Assembly: GCF_900637665.1 (NCBI RefSeq)
Contig: NZ_LR134386.1
Location: 922,501 to 986,500, forward strand
Reading direction: 5' to 3'
DNA length: 64,000 nt
Source of the DNA: Chryseobacterium nakagawai
GTDB lineage: Bacteria; Bacteroidota; Bacteroidia; Flavobacteriales; Weeksellaceae
Part shown: piece after piece, positions 55,973 through 64,000 of the stretch
How positions within the stretch are numbered: position 1 is the stretch's first letter
How the letters are laid out: every line of letters starts with the position of its first letter
Made by a program: the position numbers and the translations under genes
Notes under the pieces: generated by a model
What the model was told of the DNA's origin: nothing
Database searches by the model: none
Seen by the model: the letters and a program-made list of their open reading frames with translations, nothing else

Positions 55973-56318
55973 TACAAGGCTGAAAGTTTTCTATTTAATA
56001 TAACCTTGTCACAAACACTTAAAATTTTCTATAAAGTCTCATATTGAGACATTTTCTATTTTTCTATTGTTTTTTTATTTAATCCTTAAATTCATTTTTT
56101 TAGGATATAAAAAAATACTCTTTACTATTAAAAAAAGGGATCGATAAAATGCATGTATTCACTTTTTAGTGGATTAATTAATTTGAGTTATTTGTTTTAA
56201 TGTATTGAAAATCAAATTTTTGAATTGTTCATTTTCAGTATTTTAAATAATTCTTTTGTTGGGTGAAAAATATGTATATATTTGTCTTAATTTTTATTTA
56301 ATCTAAACAAAAATAATA
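55973..56318. other. AT-rich upstream region of the siderophore operon
   Basis: No gene here. The 3' end holds the operon promoter (56254-56284). A 7-bp inverted pair TGAAAAT (56206-56212) and ATTTTCA (56231-56237) lies upstream of the -33 box and is a possible operator for iron control, but it is not a convincing Fur box. Confidence 0.5.
56254..56284 (+). promoter_or_regulatory. Promoter of the siderophore operon
   Basis: -33 TTTTG (56254-56258), spacer 18, and an exact -7 box TATATTTG (56277-56284). The ATG at 56319 follows 34 bases later. Confidence 0.7.
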
Positions 56319-57923
56319 ATGAGTGTCGGTTTGTACTTATTGGAAAACAAAAACTGGTATTATTTTGACCTTATACCAAAGTTTGATGAAGAGTTGTCAA
56401 CGTTCATGAACAATTGTTCTGAAAGTAAATTCATCCGAATTAATATTACAGGTAAAGAATCTTATTTAATTGTTCCTGTAAAGCATTTTTCTACTACCGG
56501 AGTTCATTACATCGGAAATGACGTAGGGTATAGAGAAAAGAAAATGGGCGAAGTGGCTAAGATAAGCGCAGAGGAAGCATATCGATTTCTTACTTCTATT
56601 GTTTACGGCGGAAATACAACCGTAGAAAATCCAGAAGAGGCTTATATCAAATATTTTTCTGAAGAATTTGATGAATATTTTGACCAGAGCCATACAATTG
56701 TAGAAAGTACTGATACTTTCACAGACTCTGTTAAGGCAGGATCCATCTTTAAATTCTTCGGCTACGATAATGATAAGCAGTTGGAGTTTATTTCTAAGAA
56801 TATTGCACTGGAGACCAATTATGATAAGAAAGCGGCAATTATCCGCTGGTTTTCAGAATATACCCACTCCTTGTTGAAAATAGCAGTAGGAAAGTATATT
56901 GAGGAAGGAATTATTTATAACAGTAATATCGAGCATACATTTATTAGCCAAAATGCAGATAAAGTAAATATTTATTTTGATGAGTATATTACAGGCGGAG
57001 CAGTAATCAGAACTGAAAAAGCTGAAAATTTTATAAGAACCCATGTGGTTTATTACAATTTATATCCTGTTTTAAGGCATTTGGCTTATTTGGGCTCAAT
57101 AGAAGAAGAGGTTCTTTATCAGATTGTAGATACTGAAATAGATTCTTTGAGAGAAGTTTACGGTGATGCCATGAATTTTATTTATGAAACCATAGAGGCA
57201 AGGCTTTTCCTAAAGCAGGCTTATAGTGTGAACCAGGATATCTGGAAAGAATATATCAGACAGCATAATTTCCTAGTTAATCCTAAACATTATTCCAAAA
57301 AGCTGATCAAGCCCGATTATGGAGAAATACTGCATAAAAGATACTTCAATAACGGGACTTTAGAAATTACTCTGAGAGCTTTTAATCCAGAAACGGATAT
57401 GGAATTCCTTCATGAATGGTCTAATATGGAATATGCTAAAAAGTATTGGGAGATGAACGTAGATCAACAGGAGTTTGAAGAAGCCTACATCAAACATATG
57501 GGAGTAGATTATTCTCATCCTTATATCGGACTTCTGAATGGCAATCCTATTTTTACACTGGAACTATATTGGGCAATAAAAGACGAAGTGGGTAAATATT
57601 ACCGTTTCAATCCGGGAGATTACGGCTTTCATATGCTTATTGCTCCTGCCAAAGAAAAAATTCCAAACTTTTCAATGAACGCACTAGCCATGTGTATGGA
57701 ATATTTCTTCTCTTTCCCACAACTGACAAGAATGATAGGTGAGGCTTCCGCATCCCATAAAGGAACTCACAACCTGATTACCAAAGTAGGGTGTGAATTC
57801 AACAGATCATTGGCGCTGCCTTATAAAACATCCAATCTGACTTTCCTCGACCGTGAGAAATTCTATGAAACCACAGAAGATATCTTTAAAAACTCGGTCC
57901 TGAAAATAAACATTACAACATAA
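56319..57923 (+). CDS. Siderophore acetyltransferase (IucB/RhbD type) fused to an unrecognised N-terminal domain
   Basis: 534 residues. The C-terminal ~185 residues (from LEITLRAFNPETDMEFLHEW, 348 on) are a GNAT domain of the IucB/AlcB/RhbD group: SHPYIGLLNGNPIFTLELYW, YGFHMLIAP with H438, and TKVGCEF. These acetylate hydroxylamine nitrogens of N6-hydroxylysine or hydroxydiamines. Residues 1-345 match no family I know; the segment 197-231 (GIIY, EH at 205-206, QN at 211-212, R231) distantly recalls the HGQN..RD region of IucA/IucC-type NIS synthetases, but the other NIS motifs are missing. Standard IucB is ~320 residues. First gene of the operon; its hydroxylase partner follows 26 bases later. 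Confidence 0.8.
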   Translation: MSVGLYLLENKNWYYFDLIPKFDEELSTFMNNCSESKFIRINITGKESYLIVPVKHFSTTGVHYIGNDVGYREKKMGEVAKISAEEAYRFLTSIVYGGNTTVENPEEAYIKYFSEEFDEYFDQSHTIVESTDTFTDSVKAGSIFKFFGYDNDKQLEFISKNIALETNYDKKAAIIRWFSEYTHSLLKIAVGKYIEEGIIYNSNIEHTFISQNADKVNIYFDEYITGGAVIRTEKAENFIRTHVVYYNLYPVLRHLAYLGSIEEEVLYQIVDTEIDSLREVYGDAMNFIYETIEARLFLKQAYSVNQDIWKEYIRQHNFLVNPKHYSKKLIKPDYGEILHKRYFNNGTLEITLRAFNPETDMEFLHEWSNMEYAKKYWEMNVDQQEFEEAYIKHMGVDYSHPYIGLLNGNPIFTLELYWAIKDEVGKYYRFNPGDYGFHMLIAPAKEKIPNFSMNALAMCMEYFFSFPQLTRMIGEASASHKGTHNLITKVGCEFNRSLALPYKTSNLTFLDREKFYETTEDIFKNSVLKINITT

Positions 57924-57949
57924 TACTTGAATACTGAAAAAGATAATTT

Positions 57950-59239
57950 ATGAAATATGATATCATTGGTATAGGAATAGGACCATTCAATCTAAGTCTT
58001 GCTGCTTTGCTTGAAGAACATGACCTGAAAACCATATTTTTTGATAAAGCACCCAGGTTCGAATGGCACAGTGGTTTGATGATAGACAGGACAACCCTTC
58101 AGGTTCCTTTTCTGGCGGATCTGGTAACGATTGTAAATCCAAAAAGCCCTTTTACTTATATCAATTATTTAAGAGAGAAAGGTAAAATTTTCCGCTTCTG
58201 CTTTAAGGAAAGCTTTTATGTAACAAGGATGGAGTATAACCTTTACTGTAAATGGGTAGCCTCACAAATTGAAAGCCTTAATTTTAGCCATACTGTTACA
58301 GAAATAGACTATAATGAAATCCATGATTGCTACGAAGTTTCAGTCATTGATCTTATTAATTGTGAAAAGAAAGTTTATCTTACCGATAAAATTGTATTAG
58401 GGGTAGGCTCAATTCCTAATGTGCCTAAAATCACAGAACGTTTCTCTAAAGAACATATTTTCCACTCTTCTGAATACTTACACAGAAAACAATATTTGAA
58501 GAAAGGCAGTACTATTACAGTATTAGGCTCCGGACAAAGCGGAGGTGAAGTCTTTTTTGATCTTCTTACTGCTAGACCGGAATTAGACTTGAAACTAAAC
58601 TGGGTAACGGCTGCGGATAGATTCTTTCCTATGGAAAATTCGAAATTCACGTATGAATTTACTTCCATGGATTATATTTCCTATTTCAACAGACTTCCAT
58701 TAAACAAAAGAAGGGAAGTGATCAACAAGCAGGATATTCTGTATAAAGGAATCAATGATGAATTGATAAGTACTATTTATGACGAACTTTATCATCAGCA
58801 GATGAAAGAAGAACAACCACTTCCCGTAAAAATACTGACCAATAGTTTGCTTGAAGAAATGTCATACGATGAAAGTTATACACTAAATATGAGGCATTTG
58901 GAAGAAGAGAAAACGTTTTCAGTAAATACGGATTATCTTATCCTGGCTACGGGTTACCGATATGAAGTTCCCCATTTCTTACAACCTATTGAAGATCGTC
59001 TGAACAAGAGTCAAAATGATGGAACATTATTGTCCTCAGAAAACTATACGGTGGATGTCAATGACAGTGAGATATTTATGCAGAACGGTTGTGTAGATTC
59101 ACAAGGGATTATCACATCAGATTTAGGAATGGGACCTTATAGAAATGCTACCATTATCAACAAAATATTAGGACACGAATATTATCCATTGGAAAAAAAC
59201 ATTGCTTTTCAGCATTTCGGAGCATTAGAAACTATATAA
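57950..59239 (+). CDS. L-lysine/L-ornithine or diamine N-hydroxylase (IucD/PvdA family)
   Basis: 429 residues, typical length. Flavin monooxygenase that turns a side-chain or diamine amine into a hydroxylamine, the first step of hydroxamate siderophores. FAD loop DIIGIGIGPFNLSLAALL is at residues 3-20; the family segment FEWHSGLMIDRTTLQVPFL follows; the NADPH loop is VLGSGQSGGEVFFDLL near 185; the C-terminal substrate-side element LATGYRYEVP is intact. Whether lysine, ornithine, cadaverine or putrescine is used cannot be read from sequence. The acetyltransferase upstream would act on its product. Confidence 0.93.
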   Translation: MKYDIIGIGIGPFNLSLAALLEEHDLKTIFFDKAPRFEWHSGLMIDRTTLQVPFLADLVTIVNPKSPFTYINYLREKGKIFRFCFKESFYVTRMEYNLYCKWVASQIESLNFSHTVTEIDYNEIHDCYEVSVIDLINCEKKVYLTDKIVLGVGSIPNVPKITERFSKEHIFHSSEYLHRKQYLKKGSTITVLGSGQSGGEVFFDLLTARPELDLKLNWVTAADRFFPMENSKFTYEFTSMDYISYFNRLPLNKRREVINKQDILYKGINDELISTIYDELYHQQMKEEQPLPVKILTNSLLEEMSYDESYTLNMRHLEEEKTFSVNTDYLILATGYRYEVPHFLQPIEDRLNKSQNDGTLLSSENYTVDVNDSEIFMQNGCVDSQGIITSDLGMGPYRNATIINKILGHEYYPLEKNIAFQHFGALETI

Positions 59240-59241
59240 CT

Positions 59242-61608
59242 ATGAAGCGTATATTTTTTCTGATCTCGGCTTTTTCTTCCTCAGCATTGGCTGCCTGCCC
59301 AATTACCTTAGTTGTTAAAAACATCAAGAATTATAATCATGATGAAGTATATGTAGTTATTAACGGGGAAAAGAAAAAGATTTCAAAACAGGGAACTGTT
59401 GATTTTGCTGAGGTTTCTGATGGTCTTGTAAAGGTGTCTGTATTGTATCAGAATAAAGCTGTTTATAATGATACGCTACATATCGATTGTCAATCGCACC
59501 AGAAATACGAAATAGAGATTTCAAATGCGAACCGGATTGATGAAGTTTATATCAGAGGTAAAAAGAAACTTGAAAAATTAAAGGAAACACCGCTAAGTGT
59601 AAAAATCGTTGATATGCAGGCGGTAAAAAGCCAGGCAAACAATATTGGTGAAATACTGAATATGGCGACCGGAGTTAAGCTCCGAACTGAAGGGGGCGTT
59701 GGTTCCGCATTTCAGGTCAATCTGGGAGGGCTTCAGGGGAAAGCAGTCAGAATTTTTAGGGATGGTGTTCCCATTGAATTTTATGGTCACAGCTTTAATC
59801 CTAATGTTTTGTCTCCCAATATGCTGGATAGAGTAGATGTTTACAAAGGGGTAATGCCTATATCGTTGGCATCGGACGCTTTAGGAGGCGGGATTAATTT
59901 TATCTCAAAGCCGATACAGAAAGATAACCTTGAGATATCAAATGAGATTGCGTCATTCAGTACCTATAAATCACATCTTAATGCTGTATTTATAGGGAAA
60001 AAAGACAGTTTGTTTTATATAGGAACCCAGGCTAGTTATGTGTTTTCCAAAAATAATTATAAAATTCTCGGTGAAGTTATTGATCCTGAAACGGCCAATC
60101 TTAAAAAAGTGGAAGCCAGAAGATTTCATGACGATACCGAAGCTTCTTATATGGAGGTTTACACCGGAGTAAGGAATAAAAGCTGGGCGAATGACTTTAG
60201 AGTAGGATTTATCTATTCTCATTTTTATAAGGAAATTCAGAATGACCTCGAAATGAGAAAACCTTACGGAGAAGCTTTCGCAAAGGAAAATAATGTGACA
60301 GGGTATCTTCAGTATAAAAAAATGTTCTTTGATAATCGTCTTAAAGTAGATTTGATGACTGCCTTCGCGAGATATAACAATTCTTTTGTGGACATCAGCA
60401 GACGAAGATATAATTGGCTGGGAGAATACACTTTCAGTAATGAAAACAGCGTTGGTGAGATCAATAAAGGGAATGATCTGAAGATGAATTACAATATGTT
60501 TCATACAAGGCTCAATGCCGCATTCAGAATCAATAATAATCACAGCCTGGAATTTGGAAATATGTATTTCTATCAAAGAAGGAAGGGAAGTGATCCTTAT
60601 GGGGCTGTCAATGTATACGGAGATGATGTTCTTAAAACCCCGGCGGTTTACAACAAGAATATTGCAGCACTGGGATTGGTATCTCATTGGCTTGACCGTA
60701 AAGTAGAAACTGTACTTGGGGTAAAGAATTATTTCTTCAGTTCTAAAGGATATACTACTGATAAATATAATTTCGCATGGGATTCTGACCGGAGTAAGAA
60801 TGCCTCCGGATATATGGCTGGTATAAGTTATAAGCCTAAAAACTTTATCCTGAAATTATCCTATGAAAAAGCGGTTCGTCTTCCTGATGAAACTGAAATT
60901 TTCGGAGATGGAATTTTAATCAAAGAAAATCTTGATCTGGAGCCGGAAAAAAGTGATAATGTAAATGTTGTTCTGGATTATACTTCATCGAATTATAAAC
61001 TGAATACGAGTTTAAATCTCTTTTACAGAAACGTCAAAAACACCATATTCATGATACCGGATAATCCTTATGGAAGGTATCAGAACTATTATGACAACAG
61101 AATTCTTGGATTAGAGTATGAGATCAATTATCAGCCTATAAAAAATCTTCAGACAGGATTCAATTTTACCTACCAGGATATAAGGCTTAAAAACCTTTCC
61201 GGTTCTGAAAAGATCTGGGAAGATGCCCGACAGCCGAATATTCCTTACTTATTTGGGAATCATTATCTGAGAGTGAATTTTTCAGATATTCTGAAAATGA
61301 AGGATAAGGTGGAGCTGTACTACAACATTAATTATGTGCATCGTTTTCTGTTATACCCTGTACCGAAAAACCTTGAGCCGGGATTGTTTTCTAAAGCAAC
61401 TATAGCTTCCAGTGACCTTCTGATCCCGAATGACGGGAGACTGGGAATGGTAGATGTAGGGGTAGGAATTACCTATTTCCTTGCAGATCCTAAGCTGGCC
61501 ATTAATTTTAGCATTAATAATCTTACGAACGAAAGACTGTATGATAATTATAATGCACAGAAACCTACAAGATCATACCATTTGAAATTAACGTATACAA
61601 TTTTTTAA
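59242..61608 (+). CDS. TonB-dependent siderophore receptor
   Basis: 788 residues, outer-membrane barrel. A signal peptide (to about ALA) is followed by a ~75-residue beta-sandwich extension with Cys19 and Cys83, which could form a disulfide. A TonB-box-like DEVYIRG precedes the plug (LKETPLSVKIVDMQAVKSQA, residues ~115-235, with GGLQGKAVRIFRDGVPI). The 22-strand barrel ends in an aromatic residue (LKLTYTIF). It lies two bases after the hydroxylase gene and should import the ferric siderophore made by the operon, or a foreign one. Confidence 0.92.
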   Translation: MKRIFFLISAFSSSALAACPITLVVKNIKNYNHDEVYVVINGEKKKISKQGTVDFAEVSDGLVKVSVLYQNKAVYNDTLHIDCQSHQKYEIEISNANRIDEVYIRGKKKLEKLKETPLSVKIVDMQAVKSQANNIGEILNMATGVKLRTEGGVGSAFQVNLGGLQGKAVRIFRDGVPIEFYGHSFNPNVLSPNMLDRVDVYKGVMPISLASDALGGGINFISKPIQKDNLEISNEIASFSTYKSHLNAVFIGKKDSLFYIGTQASYVFSKNNYKILGEVIDPETANLKKVEARRFHDDTEASYMEVYTGVRNKSWANDFRVGFIYSHFYKEIQNDLEMRKPYGEAFAKENNVTGYLQYKKMFFDNRLKVDLMTAFARYNNSFVDISRRRYNWLGEYTFSNENSVGEINKGNDLKMNYNMFHTRLNAAFRINNNHSLEFGNMYFYQRRKGSDPYGAVNVYGDDVLKTPAVYNKNIAALGLVSHWLDRKVETVLGVKNYFFSSKGYTTDKYNFAWDSDRSKNASGYMAGISYKPKNFILKLSYEKAVRLPDETEIFGDGILIKENLDLEPEKSDNVNVVLDYTSSNYKLNTSLNLFYRNVKNTIFMIPDNPYGRYQNYYDNRILGLEYEINYQPIKNLQTGFNFTYQDIRLKNLSGSEKIWEDARQPNIPYLFGNHYLRVNFSDILKMKDKVELYYNINYVHRFLLYPVPKNLEPGLFSKATIASSDLLIPNDGRLGMVDVGVGITYFLADPKLAINFSINNLTNERLYDNYNAQKPTRSYHLKLTYTIF

Positions 61609-61618
61609 TATTATAATC

Positions 61619-62899
61619 ATGAGAAAATCAAAATCGATTTCAATCATTTTATCTGCATTAAGCCTATTGCTTTTTACCCATTGCAGCAGCGATGACAGTA
61701 TTGAAGAGCAGAAACAGCCAACCACAACAGCTAAAGACAGCTGGATCATTTATAACAGTACAGCAGGATGGGGAGGAAATATTTATTCATTCTCAGAACT
61801 GCCTCAGGGAGAACTTTCATTAGCTGATAAAAAGCCGTTCTACCAGATTGCTTATTCTGCAGGAGGGAAAGCTTTTGGAGAAAACATGTACAGATTGGGA
61901 GGAGCCGCTTCTTCAGAAGAAGGATTTTCTAAATTGACAGCAGATAATGCCGGAAATATTTCATCAAAAGGGTTTATTGCTACTCAAAATAATGGATTTG
62001 AACCTAATTATCTTGTCGTAAGTGATACAGAAGGATATTATTGGGATGGTTCCAGAGGAATGCTTAAAATCCAAACCTTTAATCCGGGAACCATGCAGCG
62101 TACAGGAGAAATTGACCTGTCTTCATTAGCTCAAACTATTGACCCTGCAGTGCTTGAACCAGGAGAAACAGCTTATCAGGCTGCCGGACAATTAATTCTA
62201 ATAAAAAGAGATGATAAATTGTATCTTGATTTACAGATTGGTAAAAAAGGATCGAACTGGCAGATCAAACCTGTTGTAAAAGAAGTGGCTGTTGCAGTTT
62301 ATAACCTGACCTCAAAAAAGGTGGAAAATGTTACAAAATATCCTAATACTACCAACTTGGGACTTTTCACTGACCATGTCCTATGGAGTATTGATGAGGT
62401 AACCAAAGATATTTATATGGTAGCAGCATCAGATATGAAAGCTCAGGAATCAGCATATTCATCAAAAATTTTAAGAATAAAGAACGGGCAAACTGTCTTC
62501 GATGCTGGTTTTGAAATTGATATGAAGAATTATGTACAGCCGGCGGAGTTTAACAGAATCTTCGCTTATAACAATAAAATTTATACTACCATTCCTTCAA
62601 CAGGTGCATCCTATTATGCAGGAGGCCATGGGGTAAGCTACAGAAATGATATCTGGTTCTGGAACGAAATTGATGTTCAGACGAAGAAGGCTGTAAAACT
62701 GGATATTCCGGTAGATAATTTCTACAACTATCAAAACCCATTCTTGTATAAAAACAGAATCTATTTCATGTCTAATAATAAAGCTGATAACTTTTCAGGC
62801 TTAAGTTCTTATGACCCGGTTTCTAAAAACACTAAAGTTGAGTTTAAACTTAAAGGAAGCGGAAGATTAATGGGTGTGAATGTCATTTCTAAAAAATAA
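61619..62899 (+). CDS. DUF4374-like surface lipoprotein (XusB-like siderophore binder)
   Basis: 426 residues. Signal peptide with LLLFTHC and lipid cysteine at residue 22, followed by SSDDSIEEQ; such acidic residues after the cysteine resemble the lipoprotein export signal that sends Bacteroidota lipoproteins to the cell surface. The rest is beta-rich with repeated YWDG, LYLDLQIG, WFWNEIDV and IYFMSNNKAD strands, consistent with the DUF4374 beta-propeller. XusB, a DUF4374 lipoprotein of Bacteroides, binds ferric siderophores beside a TonB receptor. Family assignment is from recall. Starts ten bases after the receptor gene; terminator follows. Confidence 0.8.
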   Translation: MRKSKSISIILSALSLLLFTHCSSDDSIEEQKQPTTTAKDSWIIYNSTAGWGGNIYSFSELPQGELSLADKKPFYQIAYSAGGKAFGENMYRLGGAASSEEGFSKLTADNAGNISSKGFIATQNNGFEPNYLVVSDTEGYYWDGSRGMLKIQTFNPGTMQRTGEIDLSSLAQTIDPAVLEPGETAYQAAGQLILIKRDDKLYLDLQIGKKGSNWQIKPVVKEVAVAVYNLTSKKVENVTKYPNTTNLGLFTDHVLWSIDEVTKDIYMVAASDMKAQESAYSSKILRIKNGQTVFDAGFEIDMKNYVQPAEFNRIFAYNNKIYTTIPSTGASYYAGGHGVSYRNDIWFWNEIDVQTKKAVKLDIPVDNFYNYQNPFLYKNRIYFMSNNKADNFSGLSSYDPVSKNTKVEFKLKGSGRLMGVNVISKK

Positions 62900-62942
62900 T
62901 TTCTTTTTTGTTAGTACAATAAGATCATTTGATTTAACGACA

Positions 62943-62970
62943 GCCGGGAGAGTTTTCTCCCGGTTTTTTT
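62943..62970 (+). terminator. Terminator of the siderophore operon
   Basis: CCGGGAGA pairs with TCTCCCGG, with AGC/GTT flanks, then seven T. It marks the end of the four-gene operon. Confidence 0.88.
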
Positions 62971-63092
62971 GTGATAAGGAAGGACGTGTAGAACTGAAAG
63001 CTAGTCGTTATCATAGACAAGATTATTAAAATTCAACCTGAACTACAAGTTAAGCTTCTAATAACCTCCTTTTATTTATAGTTTAAGAGCAC

Positions 63093-63122
63093 TTCCGTCT
63101 TTCATCCTCAAGCTTCCCGTCA
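63093..63122. repeat. Purine-rich repeat-like stretch
   Basis: On the minus strand GACGGGAAGCTTGAGGATGA continues into AAGACGGAAG. The GGAAG..GATGAAAGA pattern resembles the arms of the 31175-31336 element. No gene lies in this 288-base gap. Confidence 0.35.
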
Positions 63123-63162
63123 TATAAATCACAATTTTATTATTCCATACTCACTTATTTAC

Positions 63163-63170
63163 TAAATTTG
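63163..63170 (+). promoter_or_regulatory. -7 box of the serine hydrolase gene
   Basis: TAAATTTG, exact TAnnTTTG, 17 bases before the ATG at 63188. Confidence 0.55.
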
Positions 63171-63187
63171 GGAAAATTAAAAAAATA

Positions 63188-64000
63188 ATGAAGCAGAAAT
63201 TTTCTTTTTTCATTTTTCTTTTAACCGTAGGATTAGCGAATGCACAGGTTGAAGAGAAAAAACTGGATGATCTGATCCAAAATACTTTGAAAACTTTTGA
63301 CGTTCCGGGAATGTCGGTAGGAATTGTAAAAGACGGAAAAGTTACCTACTCCAAAGGATTTGGAGTACGTTCTCTTACCTCTAAACAACCAATGGATGAT
63401 AGTACTTTGGTAGGAATTGCTTCCAATTCCAAAGGTTTTACTTGTGTAGCATTAGCAATTTTAGCAGATGAAGGAAAATTGAATTGGGACGATAAAGTTT
63501 CAAAATACATCCCTGAATTTCAAATGTATGATCCTTACGTTTCTCAAAATATTACGATCAAGGATCTTATTACTCACAGAGCCGGACTAGGATTAGGACA
63601 AGGAGATTTAATGTTTTTTCCGGAAGGAGGAAGCTTAACCGTTAATGATATTGTTCACAATGTGAGATACCTGAAACCAGAAAACCCTTTCAGAACAACT
63701 TTAGATTATAATAATATCATGTTCATCGTTGCCGGTGAAGTAATCCACAGAATTTCAGGATTAAGCTGGGCCGAATTTATTGAGCAGAGAATCATGAAAC
63801 CTGTAGGAATGACTTCCAGCTTTGGAAGCTACAACAGAGCGAAAGCAGTAACAAATAAAATTGATGCCCACGCTCCTGTAGATGGAAAAGCGATTGCCGT
63901 TCCTCACGATTGGAATGAAACCGGAAATGCCGCCGGAGGGATCATGAGTAATATTAAAGACATGACCACCTGGGCAGAATGTTTATTAAATAATTTCACT
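63188..64000 (+). CDS. Serine beta-lactamase-like hydrolase (partial, 3' end outside window)
   Basis: 271 codons are visible before the window ends. A signal peptide (MKQKFSFFIFLLTVGLANAQ) is followed by a class C beta-lactamase/DD-peptidase domain. The nucleophile motif S-x-x-K is SNSK near residue 80, and the Y-x-N motif is YNN (LDYNNIMFIVAGEVI). The third K-T-G motif should lie beyond the end. Likely an esterase or peptidase of the serine hydrolase (Pfam Beta-lactamase) family; resistance cannot be claimed. Own -7 box; not part of the siderophore operon. Confidence 0.88.
   Translation, partial: MKQKFSFFIFLLTVGLANAQVEEKKLDDLIQNTLKTFDVPGMSVGIVKDGKVTYSKGFGVRSLTSKQPMDDSTLVGIASNSKGFTCVALAILADEGKLNWDDKVSKYIPEFQMYDPYVSQNITIKDLITHRAGLGLGQGDLMFFPEGGSLTVNDIVHNVRYLKPENPFRTTLDYNNIMFIVAGEVIHRISGLSWAEFIEQRIMKPVGMTSSFGSYNRAKAVTNKIDAHAPVDGKAIAVPHDWNETGNAAGGIMSNIKDMTTWAECLLNNFT

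Follow-up and report, generated by a model that had tools for sequence, protein, structure and literature searches.

A 64,000-nucleotide stretch of Chryseobacterium nakagawai DNA (the window), corresponding to positions 922501-986500 of one 5.60-Mb contig, was analysed. Four open reading frames were confirmed on the + strand, g1 at 56319-57923, g2 at 57950-59239, g3 at 59242-61608 and g4 at 61619-62899. They are separated by 26, 2 and 10 bases, and so the compact four-gene layout proposed in a preliminary description was borne out in both coordinates and spacing. The first gene encodes a gutted NIS synthetase fused to a predicted siderophore N-acyltransferase (534 aa), the second a diamine-type flavin N-hydroxylase, the third an MxcH-like TonB-dependent receptor, and the fourth a beta-propeller lipoprotein resembling Bacteroides fragilis XusB. 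A terminator had also been proposed 3' of the operon, and a 10-pair terminator-like stem (six G-C pairs, then a T run) was found at 62942-62965 (+). It was the longest of six terminator-like sites in the region, compared with 3.9 ± 2.1 in shuffled sequences. The next ORF 3' of g4 was beta-lactamase/serine hydrolase-like by eye.

About 50 bases directly 5' of g1 were almost invariant in all 13 aligned Chryseobacterium loci. The candidate −7 promoter element, TATATTTG (56277-56284, +), was present in 13/13 upstream regions and agrees with TAnnTTTG, the Bacteroidota −7 consensus. Mention of −7/−33 elements is made for the Bacteroidota group (PMC5609570). A possible, weak Fur-type operator, ATTTTTATTTAATCTAAAC (56290-56308, +), had the same letters in 11 of the 13 loci and differed by one base in each of the remaining two. 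It scored 14/19 against the Riemerella Fur box, a value with a chance probability of about 0.11 in random 100-base stretches, and scores of at least 14/19 occurred 18 times across the 64-kb window, with strands counted apart. This Fur box is not convincing, its score being close to chance level. Scores for the TonB genes of six distant loci of the same short type were 9, 11, 11, 11, 13 and 15 of 19; four TonB genes of the long type (full-length NIS-GNAT fusions) reached 16/19, and two decarboxylase-like genes 12/19. Iron control of the predicted operon is plausible.

The C-terminal half of g1 (residues 345-520; 57351-57878, +) is a DfoC-like GNAT acyltransferase domain. It matched PF13523 in Pfam with 117.7 bits (E 4.1e-34, cut-off 27), and its closest solved GNAT by sequence was DfoC (5o7o, E 2.5e-25). 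A search of about 5.8 billion proteins gave 34 g1 homologues, all with the PF13523 domain. The dN/dS in this half was 0.014. Its predicted role is acyl transfer to an N-hydroxy amine.

The preliminary description had seen no recognisable NIS synthetase. That claim has to be corrected, as the N-terminal part of g1 (residues 1-324; 56319-57290, +) is a gutted one, in which the start of the N-terminal domain and the palm are left and the ATP core is missing. PF04183 (IucA/IucC) was absent from g1 at E values up to 10, and from all 34 family members at E values up to 1. The core motifs GHxLHP, HPWE, SS[IV]RT and KFSLH fell in gaps in 34/34 members, and the full palm motif E-x-H-Q-Q-N was found in 0/34, while all of them were intact in 6/6 long relatives; we take these motifs to be functional sites of NIS synthetases. 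In the structure model, the first half of g1 superposed on IucA at 2.7 Å, and the remaining domains kept the NIS fold. An FhuF iron-reductase reading (match E 0.03) was discarded, because the g1 model fits IucA instead.

It had been suggested that this N-terminal domain does the coupling. With the catalytic core missing in 34/34 members, the half was rejected as an active coupling enzyme of the known kind. To couple still, it would need a mechanism unlike known NIS synthetases, which we find hardly credible given the absence of the four core motifs and the full palm motif throughout the family, and a dN/dS roughly eight times as high as in the GNAT half. One point counts against a mere shell: the palm His (kept in 3/34) and Asn (10/34) occur together in two members (P0027 and P0032). 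Both residues are lost in the g1 of this genome.

The N-hydroxylase g2 matched PF13434 with 375.8 bits. Its closest solved relative was the putrescine N-hydroxylase 7us3 (E 1.7e-109), followed by the desferrioxamine N-hydroxylase 5o8p (E 2.4e-109). Ornithine monooxygenase 3s5w was matched at E 5.8e-39, so the diamine enzymes are closer. Assignment to histamine N-monooxygenase (TIGR04439) was rejected, with 379.1 bits against a curated cut-off of 700.

The receptor g3 has a Plug domain (PF07715, E 7.4e-16). It was not accepted as the MxcH myxochelin receptor, because its NF038079 score of 408.4 bits is under the cut-off of 925. It ends 10 bases 5' of g4, as expected of a Xus operon, a type that further includes an adjacent PepSY reductase. 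By fold, g4 is a DUF4374-type beta-propeller, and its best match was the hookless BfXusB, with 12% identity across the superposed residues. A PDB sequence search with g4 gave noise only, so the XusB assignment, which had been made before and holds, rests on fold. The structural comparison suggests that g4 of the window is of the hydroxamate-binding type, which lacks the hook loop; the g4 of Pedobacter is too remote a match for this reading to extend to it. XusB-type proteins fall in length groups peaking at 410 and 465, and the type is known for xenosiderophore capture (PMC13142918). The length of g4 is 426 aa, and its predicted lipoprotein cysteine, Cys22, was invariant in 29/29 aligned sequences. 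Relatives of g4 with 57-58% identity were found in Riemerella and Bergeyella (P0037, P0038). Neither name appears among the g1 homologues bearing names (most of the 34 listed bear none), and these bacteria may take up the same ligand through a receptor without making it.

Both the kind of binder and these relatives would fit an XusAB-like piracy operon, in which g1 and g2 would act on scavenged xenosiderophore fragments or amines, modifying or repairing them. However, an N-hydroxylase and a hydroxamate acyltransferase are the standard hydroxamate-making pair. Moreover, g4 was found in 14 of 98 Chryseobacterium genomes, namely the 12 with a short g1 and two with remote matches at 25-28% identity; all 12 orthologues thus accompany a short g1. 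We regard piracy as decidedly unlikely.

All four genes were found together in 20/20 distinct loci. These comprise 12 loci and a further eight, which are L052 and L053 from Chryseobacterium, three from Pedobacter, and those of Empedobacter, C. oryctis and Taibaiella. Among the loci bearing species names, those of Chryseobacterium jejuense, C. ureilyticum, C. contaminans and C. pennae are close to this one. Among the 12 Chryseobacterium genomes with a short g1, identity was 74-100% in 11 and 44% in one. PF04183 was matched in 50 of the 98 genomes, and none had both, with a chance expectation of about 6 (12 × 50 / 98). The 11 genomes are close relatives, so this exclusion counts as few independent events. 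Nine genomes were searched through their loci; seven were without PF04183, one of them apparently among the 12. Two of the three Pedobacter genomes carried a separate full NIS-GNAT fusion (815-aa frame) elsewhere, so that beyond Chryseobacterium the exclusion does not hold throughout. In the three Pedobacter loci, g3 was 35% and g4 29-31% identical to the genes of the window, the latter being a remote match. The class-wide search detected g1 in 5/247 genomes, with full-length coverage only in C. nakagawai itself, and g4 in 6/247; in five of these six, the best match had 24-28% identity. One of the g1 hits, a 558-aa ORF in L079, was unrelated and presumably GldM-like. Among plasmids, 3773 records matched g1, all below 60% identity and none over more than 80% of the query.

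A tree of 31 GNAT domains separated 20 short from 9 long forms by supported branches (98/95), with two others outside. The short forms were 11 from the loci and 9 of 33 homologues; the root was placed at the midpoint for drawing, and the tree includes long branches that may attract each other. Judged from this tree, the truncated g1 is one old family. Two local irregularities were seen. In L027:5311-7678 (genome G038), g3 has a frame change near residue 110, either a sequencing error or a real break. Compared with L028 (G007), the window at 57569-63818 had 95-100% DNA identity in 250-base bins from ~57.6 to ~63.8 kb, and 83-90% in four bins at 56.6-57.6 kb, which hold most of the NIS-derived half of g1. 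The pattern suggests recombination of this tract, one edge of which would fall within g1.

The gene order in six distant loci was g3-g4-[HmuY-like or DoxX-like]-g1-g2; Taibaiella had no intervening gene. HmuY is a heme-binding family, and its member lies between g4 and g1 in the three Pedobacter loci (L058:7038-7748 by Pfam; L061 and L064 by position, length and start). A DoxX-like gene takes its place in Empedobacter and two Chryseobacterium (L059:7511-7945, L062:7522-7953 and L060:3670-4101), an assignment based on Pfam in L059 and L062. A membrane acyltransferase-like gene follows g2 in the six distant loci, recognised as HGSNAT/Acyl_transf_3 by Pfam in one (L058:11015-12121) and by eye in five. 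It was not seen in the compact operon and is possibly a further biosynthetic or tailoring step. Directly 3' of it, Empedobacter has a SIP reductase by Pfam, and C. oryctis one by eye.

In the whole one-contig genome of C. nakagawai, PF04183 had zero matches, in a search with positive controls in E. coli and Haloferax. The lack of an IucA/IucC synthetase noted for the locus thus extends to the genome, and the picture of hydroxamate enzymes, receptor and XusB-like binder in a compact operon without a complete NIS synthetase in the genome stands. No NRPS-sized condensation domain was matched in this genome either. At 4.12 Mb (L046, G000:C1:4119749-4121760), a pair of neighbouring condensation-like ORFs stand alone, in frames of 429 and 425 aa; the first also matches AATase in Pfam, and a 177-aa ORF comes next. 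The missing amine source, which had been presented as a puzzle, is not a real one: diamines could come from a PLP decarboxylase (5.29 Mb) and an arginine-decarboxylase-like gene (4.53 Mb), above Pfam and below NCBIfam cut-offs. As such genes exist elsewhere in the genome, the amine source need not be in the locus. In the locus itself, no exporter and no dedicated decarboxylase were recognised. Two SIP reductases scored above the cut-off, both away from the locus, and no HGSNAT-like protein was matched in the genome, in a search run without a positive control.

These searches bear on the proposal that the pathway is completed elsewhere, with a g1/g2 building block condensed to a larger siderophore by another enzyme of the genome. 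In favour of it, most known hydroxamate siderophores are multidentate, a membrane acyltransferase-like gene is added in the distant loci, some of which also have a SIP reductase, and the two condensation-like ORFs are paired at 4.12 Mb. Against this, PF04183 was unmatched in the 12 operon-bearing genomes among the 98 and in seven of the nine searched through loci, and the NRPS-sized condensation search was negative in the genome itself. Completion elsewhere thus appears unsupported by the PF04183 and condensation-domain searches, and we consider it doubtful; it is the main rival of the reading favoured below.

The nearest comparison is with the loci of full-length NIS-GNAT fusions in other Chryseobacterium, possibly of the chryseochelin type. 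They have the same domain order as g1, with g2 43-46% and GNAT 35-39% identical to those of the window, but retain the complete IucA/IucC core. A separate decarboxylase-like ORF was present in 5/8 of these loci by clustering (family-tested in L040), several have a MATE exporter-like transporter by eye, and one type has a second NIS synthetase. None of the eight had a g3 or g4 match at 1e-4. Elsewhere, an 801-aa protein (L042:8341-10746) has the GNAT-NIS order of DfoC, in a genome that also holds a NIS-GNAT protein (L043). In G003 (L044:7965-10390), the long NIS-GNAT gene reads as one ORF of 460 aa plus another of 349 aa, with a PF04183 match only at positions 1-181.

In DfoC of the desferrioxamine pathway, the GNAT (residues 19-186 of 787) stands ahead of an intact NIS part, whereas in g1 it comes last. 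EryM/MbtK and SidF have, going by PDB entry names and lengths, a C-terminal GNAT behind an N-terminal domain, as in g1. However, both halves of g1 align with EryM only at about 10.5 Å, compared with the 2.7 Å of the first half on IucA. The g2 relative 7us3 is FbsI of the fimsbactin pathway, in which an NRPS takes up the hydroxamate; the C. nakagawai genome differs in having no NRPS-sized condensation match. XusAB of B. fragilis has in common with this operon the g4 fold, the adjoining TonB receptor and the expected hydroxamate ligand, and hydroxamate-making genes are joined only in the case described here. Neither the operon nor a gutted NIS-GNAT protein was described in the titles and abstract starts of the open-licence PMC articles listed by the literature searches.

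Of the three options raised in the preliminary description, the simple N-acyl-N-hydroxy compound is the one left and the one that we favour. We see an even chance that the operon serves both to make a small hydroxamate siderophore and to take it up again, with no condensing synthetase involved. This reading builds on what was computed, namely the families, the folds, the loss of the NIS core, the conservation of the gene set, and the lack of NIS or NRPS-sized condensation matches. In it, g2 would hydroxylate one amino group of a putrescine- or cadaverine-like diamine from general metabolism, and the GNAT half of g1 would acylate the N-OH to give the hydroxamate. The front half of g1 would be an ancient NIS synthetase which lost its ATP core and serves as a structural or docking shell. 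After export, the ferric complex, probably of several bidentate ligands, would be bound at the surface by the g4 propeller and imported by g3. What we infer concerns the substrate and the acyl group, the final product and its export, binding at the surface, and the response to iron. The pathway needs no synthetase, in agreement with the absence of NIS matches in the genome. The weak iron binding of monohydroxamates when dilute counts against a small hydroxamate. So do the lack of a recognised exporter or dedicated decarboxylase in the locus, the additional membrane acyltransferase-like gene of the six distant loci, the near-chance Fur box, and in Pedobacter the remote g4 and the full NIS-GNAT genes of two genomes. 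An extension that we consider unlikely is that the cell makes only a bidentate monohydroxamate and that g4 collects three of these ligands about a single iron, in a cage like that of ferrichrome, before passing the complex on to g3. A protein scaffold would then do outside what NIS condensation did inside, which would explain the loss of the NIS core alongside the XusB-type binder.

Genome mining for NRPS-independent siderophores searches for IucA/IucC genes, and loci like this one would therefore be passed over. Judged by sequence, the g1 family would be a natural case in which a gutted NIS synthetase survives as the shell of an acyltransferase that looks active. The operon would also tie to the cell's own hydroxamate synthesis an XusB-type lipoprotein, a kind described so far, in the source cited, for stealing foreign siderophores (PMC13142918).
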